In this document: one piece after another, positions 1,295 to 12,887 of the stretch | Position numbering within the stretch: the stretch's first letter is position 1 | Layout of the letters: each line of letters opens with the position of its first letter | NCBI RefSeq assembly: GCF_003065405.1 | Contig: NZ_CP026947.1 | Coordinates: 1,364,001-1,428,000 of the forward strand | Reading direction: 5' to 3' | Origin: Corynebacterium yudongzhengii | GTDB lineage: Bacteria; Actinomycetota; Actinomycetes; Mycobacteriales; Mycobacteriaceae | Length of the DNA: 64,000 nt | Position numbers and translations under genes: made by a program | Notes under the pieces: model-generated | Seen by the model: the letters and a program-made list of their open reading frames with translations, nothing else | Told to the model about the DNA's origin: nothing | The model's database searches: none

Positions 1295-4033
1295 TTAACT
1301 GATCTGGTCAACCTGGTCGAGCTGGTCGATCGCATCGAGTGTGCCCGCGGGCCAGTCGACGTTCTTCGCCAGCGGAATCTGGTGGGAGGCCGATTCGAGG
1401 ATGTGCATGAAGTAGCCGGCGGTGTTCGGAATCGCGATGATGTCGCCGGCGGAGACACCACGTGGGAAGCGGATGCGGCGGCGCAGGATCACCTCATCCT
1501 CGATGCAGTACGCCCCGACCAAGAAGGCCTCGAGTTCCGCGGAATCCGGGGTGCGTTTCACCAGGATCGGATCGACGAGATAATCGTCCGAGGTAGTGCG
1601 GCACTGGGTGCGGTTCATGTGCAGACCCACCAGGGGAAGTCCGTCACTGCGGGTTTTCACGAACGCCACCTGGGCGAGGATCAGGCCGCAGCCGTCGAGT
1701 AGCGAGCGGCCCGGCTCGAGGTGCAGGCGCAACCCGCGCTCGCTGAGAGCCTCGGCGATGCCGTCGGAGAGCACCTGCTGCAACCACGCACCACGGGTCG
1801 GCTGCTGGTGGAAGGGATAATGCGTGCTCAACGGGTCGGACTTCCAGGTAAACGGTGCCGCGTAGCCGGCACGCTGCGTGCTGATCGCGCTGCAGTAGTC
1901 CTCCCACTGCTCGGCGTCGTCGAGATAGCTCATCGGCACCCCGCCCCCGATGTCGATGAACTCCGGGACGTGGCCGGCTGCGCGCAGGCTGTCGGTCAAC
2001 TCCATGCATTCGCGCAACGCCGCGGCCCGATCCGCCGCAGCGTAACCGTGCAGATGGGCGTGCACCCCGACAACCTTGACGCCCTCGACGGGGCGGGCAA
2101 GATGATTCTTCCAGGTATCGAGACGCTCGCCGAAACGCGTCGGGGGCATCATGGCGGGATCCGGGGCCAGACGTGGTGCAACATAGGCCGGGTTGCCGCC
2201 GGCGAGCTCGACGATACGGTCGTACTCATCACGGTTGTCGGCGGAGATGACCACACCCGACTCAATGGCCAGGCGCAGCAGGTGGTCGGTCTTGATCGCA
2301 GCCGAAACGATAATGCGCTCCCCCGGCACGCCCCGCATCAGGACCTGCCGCAACTCGTCGTAGCTGGCCACATCCACGCCGTGGCCGGCATCACGCACCG
2401 TGTCGACGAAGGCGATGCCCTTGTTCGCCTTGCGGGCGAAGAACACCTTCACCTCGACACCGCAGTCTGCCCCGGCCTGCACGAGCTCGTCGATGTTAGA
2501 CACCATCGGTTCTGGATTGAGGATGTTGACCGGGCTGGAGTAGGTATCGAGCAGGCTCTGGCACCGTTCCGGATCCGCGAGCAGCTCATCGACCCATCCC
2601 TCCGTGCGCGCGGTCAGCGGCGGTGTGCCGTGCACCCGCTGCGGGTGCACCATCGCGGCAGCCGAGACGCGCTTGGCCCAGGCTGGAATGACGTCGTCCT
2701 CGCTGCGGCGCAGCGTGTCGTGGCCGAGGATCCATCCCTCGCTCATCCGCCCGGCCGCGGCAAGATGCTTCTGGCCCACGAGTGTGCCGTCTGGCTCGAC
2801 GCGCAAGGCCCGATTGTTGCCGGTGTTGGTGTAGGTCTGCCCGATGCCCGCTTCCACCAGGAAGCCGACGAGCGTGCCCGGCACGACACCGGCGGGCGCG
2901 GTGACTGAGTCGACGATGACGTCCGCCCCCACCTCCGCGGCGAGTGCGCGCAGGTCCTGGTCACCGCGCTGCATGACGTCGACACGCACACGCCCGGAAT
3001 CCAGTGCCTCGACCAGATCGCGGGCCGTGTCGGCGGGAGGCCCGAAGGCGACGCGCTCGAGCACGCGGGTGAGCCGGTAAAAGCGCTCGCCACCGAGGGT
3101 GTCGCGCCCGCCGAAGGAGGCGCGACGGATGATCTGCGGATAGAGGGTTCGGAAGGTGTATCCCACTGCCAGTGCTGCAGTCCACGGCCGGGTTGCCTCG
3201 GCCGCAGCCAGTGAGGTGCGCAGCTCGGCCACGGCATCCCCGGTGAAGTCGGTGCCGTCGATCACGGCCGCGACATCGCCGTCACCACCCTGGGCGCGCA
3301 GAATAGTCTGCGCGGCCTCGGTCAGAATCGCGCGGAACTGGTCGAAGCCCTCACAGCGCCGGATTTCCTCCGCGTGAGGCGCCAGAGCAGACGCACGTGC
3401 CGCCTCATCCTCGGGATAGGCCTTGACTTCCATGAACCGGCCGGTTCGGGTGACCGGGTAGATCCTTCGGGCGGGAACGTAGCGGACCACATCCATAAAC
3501 GACAACGCTGCCCCGCGCACGAGCAGGACGTCGCCGCGCCCGATCGAGTCGAGATTCGTATGCGGGTAGGCGCTTTGCGCACCTACCACCGGTTCGGCGG
3601 GAGCATGGCCGGTGCACAGCAGGACCTCGGCAAACAGCTCGCCCTCGACCACAACACCGCCGTCGACGGGAGTGAGGTTTGAAACCTTGCGCTCAATCAT
3701 CTCGAGAGTGCAACCGCGCGGGAGGTTCTCGCGCAGCGCTTCCCAGGAGGCGAGGAGGAATTGCCCCACCGTGCGGCGGGAGGGAAAGTCGTCGTCCGCG
3801 CCACGCCAGGTGTTGAAGGAACTCAATCGGGTCTCGATCACCCCGGAGGGGACGTTGAGCAGCCATTGCTCGGGCGTATCGGGCCGGAAGGCATCCGGTG
3901 CACTGAGAGCGTCGAGGGGGGCGTCGTTAAGCACCGACAACTCGATTCGCGCACCACGCTGCCGGGCACGTTCCATCAGCTCCTCAGCCGCCCAGAGTCC
4001 GCGCGGTCCTGCGCCGATGATTGCTACCTTCAC
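1295..4033 (-). CDS. Two-domain fusion: FAD/NAD(P)-binding domain plus PLP-dependent (Y4yA/DAP-decarboxylase-like) enzyme
   Basis: This 912-residue protein begins with a dinucleotide-binding fingerprint (IIGAGPRG, residues 5-12) in a domain of about 450 residues that resembles FAD-NAD(P)-binding (NAD_binding_9-type) proteins. From about residue 475 it is a fold-type III PLP decarboxylase: probable PLP lysine K535 in ARKANK, HAHLHG (658-663), IDIGGGV (693-699), the phosphate-binding EPGR (773-776), a catalytic-type Cys843 in AYCIEDEV and Tyr874 in TAGYF. It resembles ornithine/diaminopimelate decarboxylases and the Y4yA family. Its ATG overlaps the stop of the SbnA-like gene upstream (ATGA), so the two are probably translationally coupled. 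Substrate is unknown; by analogy with staphyloferrin B genes it may act on a 2,3-diaminopropionate-type intermediate. The fusion seems continuous, with no frameshift. Confidence 0.75.
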   Translation of the reverse strand: MKVAIIGAGPRGLWAAEELMERARQRGARIELSVLNDAPLDALSAPDAFRPDTPEQWLLNVPSGVIETRLSSFNTWRGADDDFPSRRTVGQFLLASWEALRENLPRGCTLEMIERKVSNLTPVDGGVVVEGELFAEVLLCTGHAPAEPVVGAQSAYPHTNLDSIGRGDVLLVRGAALSFMDVVRYVPARRIYPVTRTGRFMEVKAYPEDEAARASALAPHAEEIRRCEGFDQFRAILTEAAQTILRAQGGDGDVAAVIDGTDFTGDAVAELRTSLAAAEATRPWTAALAVGYTFRTLYPQIIRRASFGGRDTLGGERFYRLTRVLERVAFGPPADTARDLVEALDSGRVRVDVMQRGDQDLRALAAEVGADVIVDSVTAPAGVVPGTLVGFLVEAGIGQTYTNTGNNRALRVEPDGTLVGQKHLAAAGRMSEGWILGHDTLRRSEDDVIPAWAKRVSAAAMVHPQRVHGTPPLTARTEGWVDELLADPERCQSLLDTYSSPVNILNPEPMVSNIDELVQAGADCGVEVKVFFARKANKGIAFVDTVRDAGHGVDVASYDELRQVLMRGVPGERIIVSAAIKTDHLLRLAIESGVVISADNRDEYDRIVELAGGNPAYVAPRLAPDPAMMPPTRFGERLDTWKNHLARPVEGVKVVGVHAHLHGYAAADRAAALRECMELTDSLRAAGHVPEFIDIGGGVPMSYLDDAEQWEDYCSAISTQRAGYAAPFTWKSDPLSTHYPFHQQPTRGAWLQQVLSDGIAEALSERGLRLHLEPGRSLLDGCGLILAQVAFVKTRSDGLPLVGLHMNRTQCRTTSDDYLVDPILVKRTPDSAELEAFLVGAYCIEDEVILRRRIRFPRGVSAGDIIAIPNTAGYFMHILESASHQIPLAKNVDWPAGTLDAIDQLDQVDQIS

Positions 4034-4983
4034 GTCACGTTCCTTTCCACCCAGTCGTCGTTGTAGATCGTATCCAGATACGCACGGCCGTCATCATGGA
4101 AGATGGCGACGATCTCAGCGGCCGGATTCTGCTGCGCCAGCGTATCGACGGCCCAGGCCACCGCGCCGCCGGAGGCCCCTGGCAAAAACCCCGTTAAGCG
4201 CGCGGTGCGCCGTGCCGCCGCAACCGCATCACGGGCGGCGACCCGGATGACTTCATCGGGCTGTCCCAGGGTGGACAATTCCGTGACCACCCCCGCACCG
4301 TATCCGGGCAGGATGCGTGTGCCCCGAGTGCCGCCGAAGAGCACGGAACCCTCCGCATCCACGGCGACCACGCGGGTGGGCATGTCGTGTTCGCGCACGT
4401 AGCGCAGACACCCGCCAACCGTACCGGTCGTGCTCACCGCCACGGCGAGAATCTCAGGGGCATGGCCGAGCTGCGCGACGACTTCTCGCATCGTGCCCTG
4501 GCTGTGGGCGATGAATGCCGCCTGGTTCGAGTACTGGTCGAGATTGACCGCGCCAAGCGTTCGCTTCAGTTCCGCCACTTTGTCCCGGCGCGCCACGAGC
4601 CAGTCGCCACTTACTGGGTCGGGGTCCGTAACCTCGTGAATCCTCGCCCCGAGCGCGCGGATGTGGGCCAGGGTGGAGGCGTTGGTGCGACGATCGACAA
4701 CGCAGTGGAACTCCCAGCCGCCGAGGGCCGCCTCACGTGCGAGTGCCACCCCGAGGTTGCCGGAGCTGGATTCGACCACGCAGGTGCCCGGTCCAATCAG
4801 CCCCCGCTCGGTGGCATCGCGGACCATCGCGCGCGCTGTGCGGTCCTTGGCGCTTCCACCGGGGTTAAAGGATTCGAGTTTGCCCCAGATTGGGCCTGCA
4901 CCGGCCGGGCGTATCCCGTCCATTGTGATCAAGGGGGTGTGCCCGATCGTTGACAGGATCCCCTGTGACGAGTCAGTTGGCAT
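4030..4983 (-). CDS. SbnA-like PLP-dependent synthase (cysteine synthase superfamily)
   Basis: Fold-type II PLP enzyme of 317 residues from the ATG at 4983. Seen: PLP-lysine motif NPGGSAKDR (K46), substrate loop ESSSGNLG (71-78), phosphate-cup STTGTVGG, and the C-terminal FHDDGRAYLDTIY, which matches the SbnA type rather than ordinary CysK. SbnA joins O-phosphoserine and glutamate to N-(2-amino-2-carboxyethyl)glutamate, a precursor of L-2,3-diaminopropionate. I prefer the start at 4983 over the in-frame ATG at 5022 because AAGG lies eight bases upstream and the N-terminus then matches family length. It overlaps the downstream fusion gene by four bases. No SbnB dehydrogenase and no siderophore synthetase are visible nearby, so the product and pathway remain inferred. 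Confidence 0.8.
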   Translation of the reverse strand: MPTDSSQGILSTIGHTPLITMDGIRPAGAGPIWGKLESFNPGGSAKDRTARAMVRDATERGLIGPGTCVVESSSGNLGVALAREAALGGWEFHCVVDRRTNASTLAHIRALGARIHEVTDPDPVSGDWLVARRDKVAELKRTLGAVNLDQYSNQAAFIAHSQGTMREVVAQLGHAPEILAVAVSTTGTVGGCLRYVREHDMPTRVVAVDAEGSVLFGGTRGTRILPGYGAGVVTELSTLGQPDEVIRVAARDAVAAARRTARLTGFLPGASGGAVAWAVDTLAQQNPAAEIVAIFHDDGRAYLDTIYNDDWVERNVT

Positions 4984-5150
4984 AATCACAACCTTATGTG
5001 TTTGCGGGAAGAGCTGTCGCATACGGCCGGCCGCAGCTTAGGAGTGCGCATGTTTCGCGTTGCGTTCACGCACCCGCAAGGCCGTGTTCATCTCCCTTCC
5101 CTATGGTGTGACCAGCCAATTGTGATCCCTGCGCCGAGGAAGGTTCCCAC

Positions 5151-11461: not shown

Positions 11462-12887
11462 GCCCCTTAAGGTGGTGTAACTCGGTGGCCGAGATCGTCT
11501 GCAGATTCGTGTTGTGCACGGATGTAGAGCGGCCACCGTGTGATCCTTCGAGTCAACCGTCTAAAGAATCCTCGAATGGAGTCATCACGATGACCGCACC
11601 TCATATCGTCGACCCTGCCGGCCTTCTTGGCCAAGCCCTCGCCGAGGCGTCGCCGGATCTGATGCGCGAGCTGCTGCAGACCATGATCAACGCCTTGCTG
11701 TCCGCCGATGCCGACGCCGTCTGCGGGGCGGAGTGGAACGCCCGCTCTGCCGAGCGCACCAACTACCGAAACGGCTACCGCCACCGCCCGCTCGATACGC
11801 GGGTTGGCACCGTCGACGTGGCGGTGCCCAAGCTGCGGTCGGGGTCCTACTTTCCCGAGTGGCTGCTCGAGCGCCGCAAGCGTGCTGAGTCCGCGCTGAT
11901 CACCGTCGTGGCGGATTGCTATCTGGCCGGAGTGTCCACCCGCCGCATGGACAAGCTGGTCAAGACCCTGGGCATTGACTCACTGTCGAAGTCGCAGGTC
12001 TCCCGCATGGCCACCGACCTGGATGAGCAGGTCGCCGCGTTCCGGCACCGGCGCCTGGATGAGGCAGGGCCGTTGACTTTCGTCACCGCCGATGCGTTGA
12101 CGATCAAGGTTCGGGAAAACAAGCAGGTCGTCAAGGCCTCGGTGCTGCTGGCCACCGGGGTCAACGGCGACGGGCACCGCGAGGTGCTGGGCATGCAAGT
12201 GGCGACCAGTGAGACCAAGGCATCGTGGAACACCTTCTTCGCCGACCTGGTCGCCCGCGGCCTGGGCGGCATGCGGCTGGTGACCTCTGATGCGCACGCC
12301 GGCCTCGTGGATGCGATCTCGGCGAATCTGCCCGGAGCCGCCTGGCAGCGCTGCCGCACCCACTACGCGGCGAACCTCATGGCGGTGTGCCCGAAGTCCA
12401 TGTGGCCGGCCGTGAAGGCCATGCTGCACAGCGTCTATGACCAGCCCACCGCAGACGCCGTCAACGCCCAGTTCGACCGACTATTGGACTACACCGAGCA
12501 CCGGCTGCCCGAGGTCGCCGACCACCTCGGTGACGCTCGAGAGGACCTGCTCGCCTTCACCACGTTCCCCGACGACGTGTGGCGGAAGATCTGGTCCAAC
12601 AACCCCACCGAGCGGCTCAACCGCGAGATCCGCCGCCGCACCGACGTTGTAGGGATCTTCCCCAACCGGGATGCCATCGTCCGCCTCATCGGCGCCGTCC
12701 TGGCCGAGCAGACCGACGAATGGGCCGAAGGACGTCGCTACCTCGGCCTCGAAGTCCTGAGCCGATGCCGACTCGCCCTGACCACCGACACCAGCTCGCA
12801 GACGGAGGTAAACACCGACCCACTGATGCAACTACCCGCCTGACCACCAACGAAGGATCAAAAACCAGTTACACCACTACCAGGGGC
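11462..12887 (+). mobile_element. IS256-family insertion sequence
   Basis: About 1.43 kb element with one transposase gene. The left end GCCCCTTAAGGTGGTGTAAC and the right end (reverse complement of 12867-12887, GCCCCTGGTAGTGGTGTAAC) match at 17 of 21 positions including the following T, forming terminal inverted repeats. I could not find the 8-9 base target duplication usual for this family (left flank CAAGTAAT, right flank TTGACCTG), so the flanks may have been rearranged or the exact ends lie a few bases away. The transposase looks intact, so the element could still be active. Confidence 0.75.
11590..12843 (+). CDS. IS256-family (mutator-type) transposase
   Basis: 417 residues from ATG 11590, with GGAG nine bases upstream; the frame is open back to a GTG at 11485 but the family length fits the ATG. 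DDE transposase: first Asp in FVTADALTIKV, second Asp in LVTSDAHAGLV, the zinc-like WQRCRTHYAANLM region, the NNPTERLNREIRRR motif typical of the family, and the final Glu in DEWAEGRRYL. It cuts and pastes the element. No frameshift or internal stop is present. Confidence 0.93.
   Translation: MTAPHIVDPAGLLGQALAEASPDLMRELLQTMINALLSADADAVCGAEWNARSAERTNYRNGYRHRPLDTRVGTVDVAVPKLRSGSYFPEWLLERRKRAESALITVVADCYLAGVSTRRMDKLVKTLGIDSLSKSQVSRMATDLDEQVAAFRHRRLDEAGPLTFVTADALTIKVRENKQVVKASVLLATGVNGDGHREVLGMQVATSETKASWNTFFADLVARGLGGMRLVTSDAHAGLVDAISANLPGAAWQRCRTHYAANLMAVCPKSMWPAVKAMLHSVYDQPTADAVNAQFDRLLDYTEHRLPEVADHLGDAREDLLAFTTFPDDVWRKIWSNNPTERLNREIRRRTDVVGIFPNRDAIVRLIGAVLAEQTDEWAEGRRYLGLEVLSRCRLALTTDTSSQTEVNTDPLMQLPA

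Follow-up and report, generated by a model that had tools for sequence, protein, structure and literature searches.

The window analysed here is a 64,000-nt stretch of the 2.51-Mb genome of Corynebacterium yudongzhengii (contig NZ_CP026947.1, positions 1,364,001 to 1,428,000). Its minus strand carries a gene for an SbnA-like synthase dependent on pyridoxal 5′-phosphate (PLP), which overlaps by 4 nt (GTGA) a gene for a 912-residue protein in which a flavoprotein is fused to a fold-type III PLP decarboxylase. That synthase, flavoprotein and decarboxylase (below, the trio) are coupled is well supported by their arrangement in many other genomes. That they form a self-contained three-enzyme biosynthetic operon, in which an N-oxygenase replaces the SbnB-family protein of an EDDS/EDHA-like scheme, is in our judgement an evenly balanced proposition. 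We regard the operon as a variant of the SbnA–decarboxylase aminopolycarboxylate pathways with a real chance of new chemistry, and the trio probably makes a small nitrogen-rich metabolite. A sequence-only reading of the window had described the synthase, the overlap and the fusion, and this layout was recovered when the coordinates were re-derived and the domains assigned by Pfam, NCBIfam and Protein Data Bank (PDB) searches.

Conservation and apparent self-sufficiency of the trio

Among 242 Corynebacterium genomes, the window's included, 126 gave a match at E ≤ 1e-10 and 115 at E ≤ 1e-60; because of this conservation in 126 of the 242 genomes of the genus, a chance association is excluded. 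In 40 regions picked by hand from these matches (a further chunk, L067, held none), 35 of the 40 flavoprotein copies were immediately preceded by the synthase and immediately followed by the decarboxylase. Of the other five copies, two have their synthase at a distance of about 1.6 kb, two are interrupted, and for one no synthase match was obtained. We also scanned named genomes with a flavoprotein profile and took the best 80 of 398 confirmed stretches, and in 66 of these 80 loci both partners lay within 400 bases of the flavoprotein. The remaining 14 comprised four loci at contig ends, one whose synthase is about 1.6 kb distant, L144 with its decarboxylase farther away, two rearranged Corynebacterium copies and six partnerless flavoproteins, two each from Brevibacterium, Rothia and Actibacterium. 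Thus the three activities do belong together, as the sequence-only reading had supposed, and most homologues have an SbnA-like gene at their side.

The order synthase, flavoprotein, decarboxylase recurred in four phyla, namely in Actinobacteria (Propioniciclava, Tessaracoccus, Rothia, Kocuria, Arthrobacter and Hoyosella among the carriers), Planctomycetes (Gimesia, Roseimaritima and Blastopirellula), Alpha- and Gammaproteobacteria (Sulfitobacter, Oceaniglobus and Salinisphaera, with Rhodobacteraceae among the carrier groups) and an Acidobacteriota metagenome-assembled genome. Flavoprotein and decarboxylase were fused in 53 of 99 intact trios and encoded by separate genes in the other 46. Named homologues were nearly all from Corynebacterium, and fused trios were found there, in three Rothia loci (L086, L100, L102) and in Propioniciclava sinopodophylli (L074). 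Because the two proteins can be fused, an intermediate may be handed on directly from one to the other. The pairwise distances of the three proteins correlated at 0.85–0.90 over 63 loci, to which shared descent contributes, and the maximum in 500 shuffles each was 0.21. The sets used here and below (99 trios, 104 synthases, 87 flavoproteins and 105 decarboxylases) include some genomes twice (for example L062 and L076); the flavoproteins include up to six without a trio and leave out broken copies.

Two observations concern unusual copies. In the Corynebacterium loci L037–L041, pieces of a second trio are separated from the first by about 10 kb, several copies are interrupted, and the genes in between resemble, by eye, phosphoesterases and YhgE/Pip proteins. 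A 909-residue fusion that is 58% identical (P0048) is labelled Streptococcus thermophilus and is possibly a mislabelled or contaminant record.

No constant neighbour beyond the trio stood out when the genes of the 40 regions were clustered; the flanking genes vary by clade, and the 20 neighbours run through Pfam, a minority of all neighbours, were mostly unrelated to one another. Among 27 carrier genomes outside Corynebacterium, 12 had no PF02423 (SbnB-family) gene, 22 no IucA/IucC-type synthetase of the non-ribosomal peptide synthetase (NRPS)-independent siderophore (NIS) type and 17 no NRPS condensation domain, although absences in draft genomes may reflect gaps. Since five of the 27 (L071, L074, L075, L114, L138) lacked all three, the trio seems to be self-sufficient. 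The absence of an NIS synthetase, noted earlier for the window, extends to the window's whole genome, where no IucA/IucC match was found; this genome has one PF02423 gene, unlinked to the trio. Nor did NIS synthetases track the operon within the genus (11 of 115 strong carriers versus 23 of 127 other genomes). An NRPS-like frame of 2237 residues (G000:C1:398432-404035) lies about 1 Mb from the window and is likewise unlinked to the trio.

Properties of the three enzymes and a proposed pathway

The synthase (Pfam domain PF00291, E 9.3e-52) has S. aureus SbnA, the staphyloferrin B enzyme, as its closest solved structure in a PDB sequence search (5d84, E 6.1e-53). In SbnA, Arg132, Tyr152 and Ser185 are credited with selecting O-phosphoserine (PMC12414870). 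The PLP lysine and the equivalents of these three residues were retained in 104 of 104 aligned operon synthases. The window's synthase differs from SbnA in scoring below the cut-off of the NCBIfam SbnA model TIGR03945 (305.4 versus 349.95 bits), although the trio synthases of L107, L145 and L172 exceed it (382.6, 354.1 and 358.4 bits), and in that no relatives of SbnB or of NIS synthetases were detected next to the trio.

The flavoprotein half contains an FAD/NAD(P)-binding domain (PF13454, fusion residues 4–143, E 5.7e-17), and the Pfam search gave no match in the fusion to PF02423, the SbnB/ornithine cyclodeaminase family. Its nearest solved relative, both by sequence and by predicted fold, is the L-aspartate N-hydroxylase FzmM (8cp2/8cp5). 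AlphaFold2 (AF2) modelled the whole fusion with pLDDT 88.9 and pTM 0.87. In the predicted fold, 451 of the 465 residues of the flavoprotein half aligned with FzmM, the FAD, NADP and helical substrate domains were arranged as in that enzyme, and the fold neighbours included flavin-containing and N-hydroxylating monooxygenases. The asparagine over the flavin C4a (FzmM Asn62) was kept in 87 of 87 flavoproteins. Together with the dinucleotide-binding motif, which is likewise kept, and the confident model, this indicates, at the level of sequence and model, that the FAD site has not been lost. The flavoprotein is unlike FzmM in that identity is 17–20% and in that its gene lies between those of a synthase and a decarboxylase. 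Of the FzmM aspartate-binding cluster (Arg13, Arg276, Arg416, Arg577, Asn413), Arg13 was the sole alignable position, occupied by Arg in 72 and by Lys in 15 of the 87 flavoproteins. The flavoprotein is most likely an N-oxygenase rather than a strict SbnB substitute, as far as its sequence and predicted fold can tell. Flavoproteins of the same family also occur without synthase or decarboxylase (L112, L116, L126, L129, L149, L150), possibly in other roles.

The decarboxylase half matched PF02784 (fusion residues 523–725, E 1.6e-24), and its PLP lysine, EPGR, Cys and Tyr motifs, listed in the earlier reading, were all present. The lysine, the EPGR arginine, the cysteine and the tyrosine were retained in 105 of 105 decarboxylases and the EPGR glutamate in 104. 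Where the separate decarboxylase has named relatives, NCBI lists several of them as 'Y4yA family PLP-dependent enzyme' and others as alanine racemase or diaminopimelate decarboxylase. The likeness to rhizobial y4yA-type enzymes that had been proposed holds at the level of the family name. In rhizobia, y4yA lies with y4xP, which has been reported as a cysteine synthase gene. The rhizobial y4 cluster differs from the trio in containing additional genes, and PMC3973906 describes its role as enigmatic. A route through cysteate to taurine was rejected, the CapA model scoring 148.3 bits against a cut-off of 600.

In the proposed pathway, the synthase would condense O-phospho-L-serine with an amino acid (by analogy with SbnA most likely L-glutamate) at the latter's amino group; an N-(2-amino-2-carboxyethyl)-amino acid, for example ACEGA, would result. 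The decarboxylase would strip the carboxylate from the diaminopropionate end to leave an ethylenediamine-type unit, and the flavoprotein, with NADPH and O2, would oxygenate a nitrogen of the compound; these two steps could occur in either order. Oxygenation might end in an N-hydroxy aminopolycarboxylate, or proceed through a nitrone and its hydrolysis to an aminoethyl-hydroxylamine and a 2-oxo acid. More tentatively, and with doubt prevailing, we suggest that the trio is a complete and hitherto unassigned route to a new class of N-oxygenated ethylenediamine-type amino acids, for example N-hydroxy-N-(2-aminoethyl)glutamate or 2-aminoethyl-hydroxylamine, that has moved between phyla as a unit and is present in about half of the Corynebacterium species examined, including skin residents.

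Related clusters and competing readings

A class-wide scan with a decarboxylase profile matched 27 of 394 genomes. Near some of the weaker matches, an SbnA-like synthase and a Y4yA-like decarboxylase were accompanied by an SbnB-family protein and a MATE exporter in the loci L159, L160, L166 and L169. L159, L166 and L170 encode a TauD-family protein, which we presume to be linked to hydroxyarginine. Families were assigned by Pfam on members from L160, L166 and L170 and by similarity for the remainder. From their gene content we infer that L159, L160, L166 and L169 are clusters of the EDDS/EDHA aminopolycarboxylate metallophore type, as these are cited in PMC9252823 and PMC10702961. Such clusters share the SbnA-like synthase and the Y4yA-like decarboxylase with the trio, but have an SbnB-family protein and a MATE exporter where the trio has its flavoprotein. 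A single-sequence search with two of their SbnB-family proteins, the MATE exporter and the TauD protein found no relatives in the 120 trio-set loci (L031–L150). We also noticed a third type of cluster (L153, L163, L164, L171), in which a CysM-like synthase adjoins a Y4yA-like decarboxylase and a class-V aminotransferase; in L153 the synthase has a rhodanese part and a methyltransferase is present (Pfam on L153, clustering for the other three).

The antiSMASH 7 program holds a rule for aminopolycarboxylic acid clusters, according to PMC10320115, and an antiSMASH-based pangenome study of C. striatum describes a metallophore cluster of this aminopolycarboxylic acid kind that resembles the EDDS one (PMC10486106). 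The decarboxylase profile gave one strong match in the C. striatum genome examined here, to the trio's own enzyme (742 bits), and one weak match of 71 bits, probably lysA. Because the trio's decarboxylase is the single strong match there, the reported cluster is probably the trio operon. The pathway had been called undescribed. This stands insofar as a literature search, with most subscription papers outside it, found none that assigns a function to the trio, and passages of PMC7676072, PMC12542688 and PMC9248904 did not settle that question; it needs amending in that the operon has probably already been tagged in C. striatum.

In one competing reading, the trio is an EDDS-like metallophore pathway proper, yielding an ethylenediamine polycarboxylate chelator with the flavoprotein performing the SbnB-family step. 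The common synthase–decarboxylase pair and the C. striatum cluster speak for it, yet we think it improbable. Besides the lack of a MATE relative in the single-sequence search of the 120 trio-set loci, the trio synthases keep SbnA Ser185, whereas all five EDDS/EDHA-type synthases compared have Gly at this position (and His stands at the Tyr152 position in four of them). Nor was a clear Zur-like or DtxR-like site evident upstream of the operon, bar a weak DtxR-like excess. The best DtxR-box score upstream of 104 synthases was 14 of 19 positions, which controls equalled; matches at 13–14 of 19 occurred in 13 of the 104 upstream regions versus 15 of 520 random windows, an excess uncorrected for base composition or repeated genomes. 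A scan for Zur-like sites and palindromes in 99 upstream regions against 297 control windows gave no clear enrichment.

Alternatively, the flavoprotein might stand in for SbnB itself, as the earlier reading had suggested, by oxidatively splitting ACEGA into 2-oxoglutarate and L-2,3-diaminopropionate, which the decarboxylase would turn into ethylenediamine as a free diamine product. We consider this unlikely, since the closest relatives of the flavoprotein are monooxygenases and not amine dehydrogenases, and since no consumer of diaminopropionate or of a diamine stood out among the neighbours examined. The suggestion may hold for position, since the spot that the flavoprotein occupies is filled in the sister clusters by an SbnB-family gene. 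Moreover, if diaminopropionate is made, the 12 carriers without an SbnB-family gene must finish it with another enzyme, and N-oxygenation of the secondary amine followed by hydrolysis would yield a similar cleavage. The flavoprotein perhaps replaces SbnB in outcome, then, by an oxygen-dependent route. Far less probable, to the point of being refuted as far as sequence reaches, is an ordinary cysteine synthase beside an ordinary diaminopimelate decarboxylase that bears an unrelated oxidoreductase domain. Several database names do say diaminopimelate decarboxylase and the LysA model TIGR01048 does match the decarboxylase half, but its score of 105.5 bits falls short of the 297.9-bit cut-off. A second, weaker decarboxylase-family match was present in 12 of 14 carrier genomes other than the window's, the SbnA-type residues are conserved in the trio synthases, and the window's genome has a separate CysK-like gene whose product carries Phe and Gly at the Tyr152 and Ser185 positions. 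The reading we favour remains an EDDS/EDHA-like scheme in which a putative N-oxygenase takes the SbnB-family place.

Gene layout and meaning of the operon

Two starts are available for the synthase, and ATG 4983, with AAGG just 5′ of it, appears better placed than the first ATG at 5022. The boundary between the two halves of the fusion (residues 465/466) is our choice.

Features of the trio operon, in window coordinates
Feature	Position	Strand	Remark
SbnA-like fold-type II PLP synthase	4030..4983	-	317 aa from ATG 4983; 330 aa from ATG 5022 (4030-5022)
Fusion, flavoprotein + Y4yA-family decarboxylase	1295..4033	-	912 aa, GTG start
Flavoprotein half, aa 1-465	2639..4033	-	predicted class B monooxygenase-like fold, FzmM-like
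Fold-type III PLP decarboxylase half, aa 466-912	1295..2638	-	Y4yA family
GAGPRG dinucleotide-binding motif, aa 7-12	3998..4015	-	R11 aligned to FzmM Arg13
N60	3854..3856	-	aligned to FzmM Asn62 above flavin
Decarboxylase PLP lysine K535	2429..2431	-	ARKANKG
EPGR motif, aa 773-776 of fusion	1706..1717	-	
C843 of fusion	1505..1507	-	GAYCIED
Y874 of fusion	1412..1414	-	TAGYFMH
Synthase PLP lysine K59	4846..4848	-	330-aa numbering
Synthase R145, Y164, S197	4432..4590	-	equivalents of SbnA Arg132, Tyr152, Ser185

Elsewhere in the window, positions 1-1276 hold a remnant cytochrome bd locus in which cydA is directly followed by a 175-residue CydC-like ATPase fragment. No cydB (PF02322) match was found in the window's whole genome, and cydB, together with most of the cydDC portion, appears to have been lost by deletion. 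A 452-residue open reading frame at 11485-12843 resembles, by eye, an IS256-type (mutator) transposase.

That corynebacteria, Rothia, planctomycetes and Rhodobacteraceae have this operon in common suggests a single small metabolite of general use, for which we found no name. If the flavoprotein does oxygenate a nitrogen of a diaminopropionate-derived compound, the trio would be a compact route to N–O groups, or to a minimal chelator, without an NRPS or NIS synthetase. Genome-mining tags such as 'EDDS-like metallophore' may hide different chemistry, and through the trio an unassigned pathway becomes testable.

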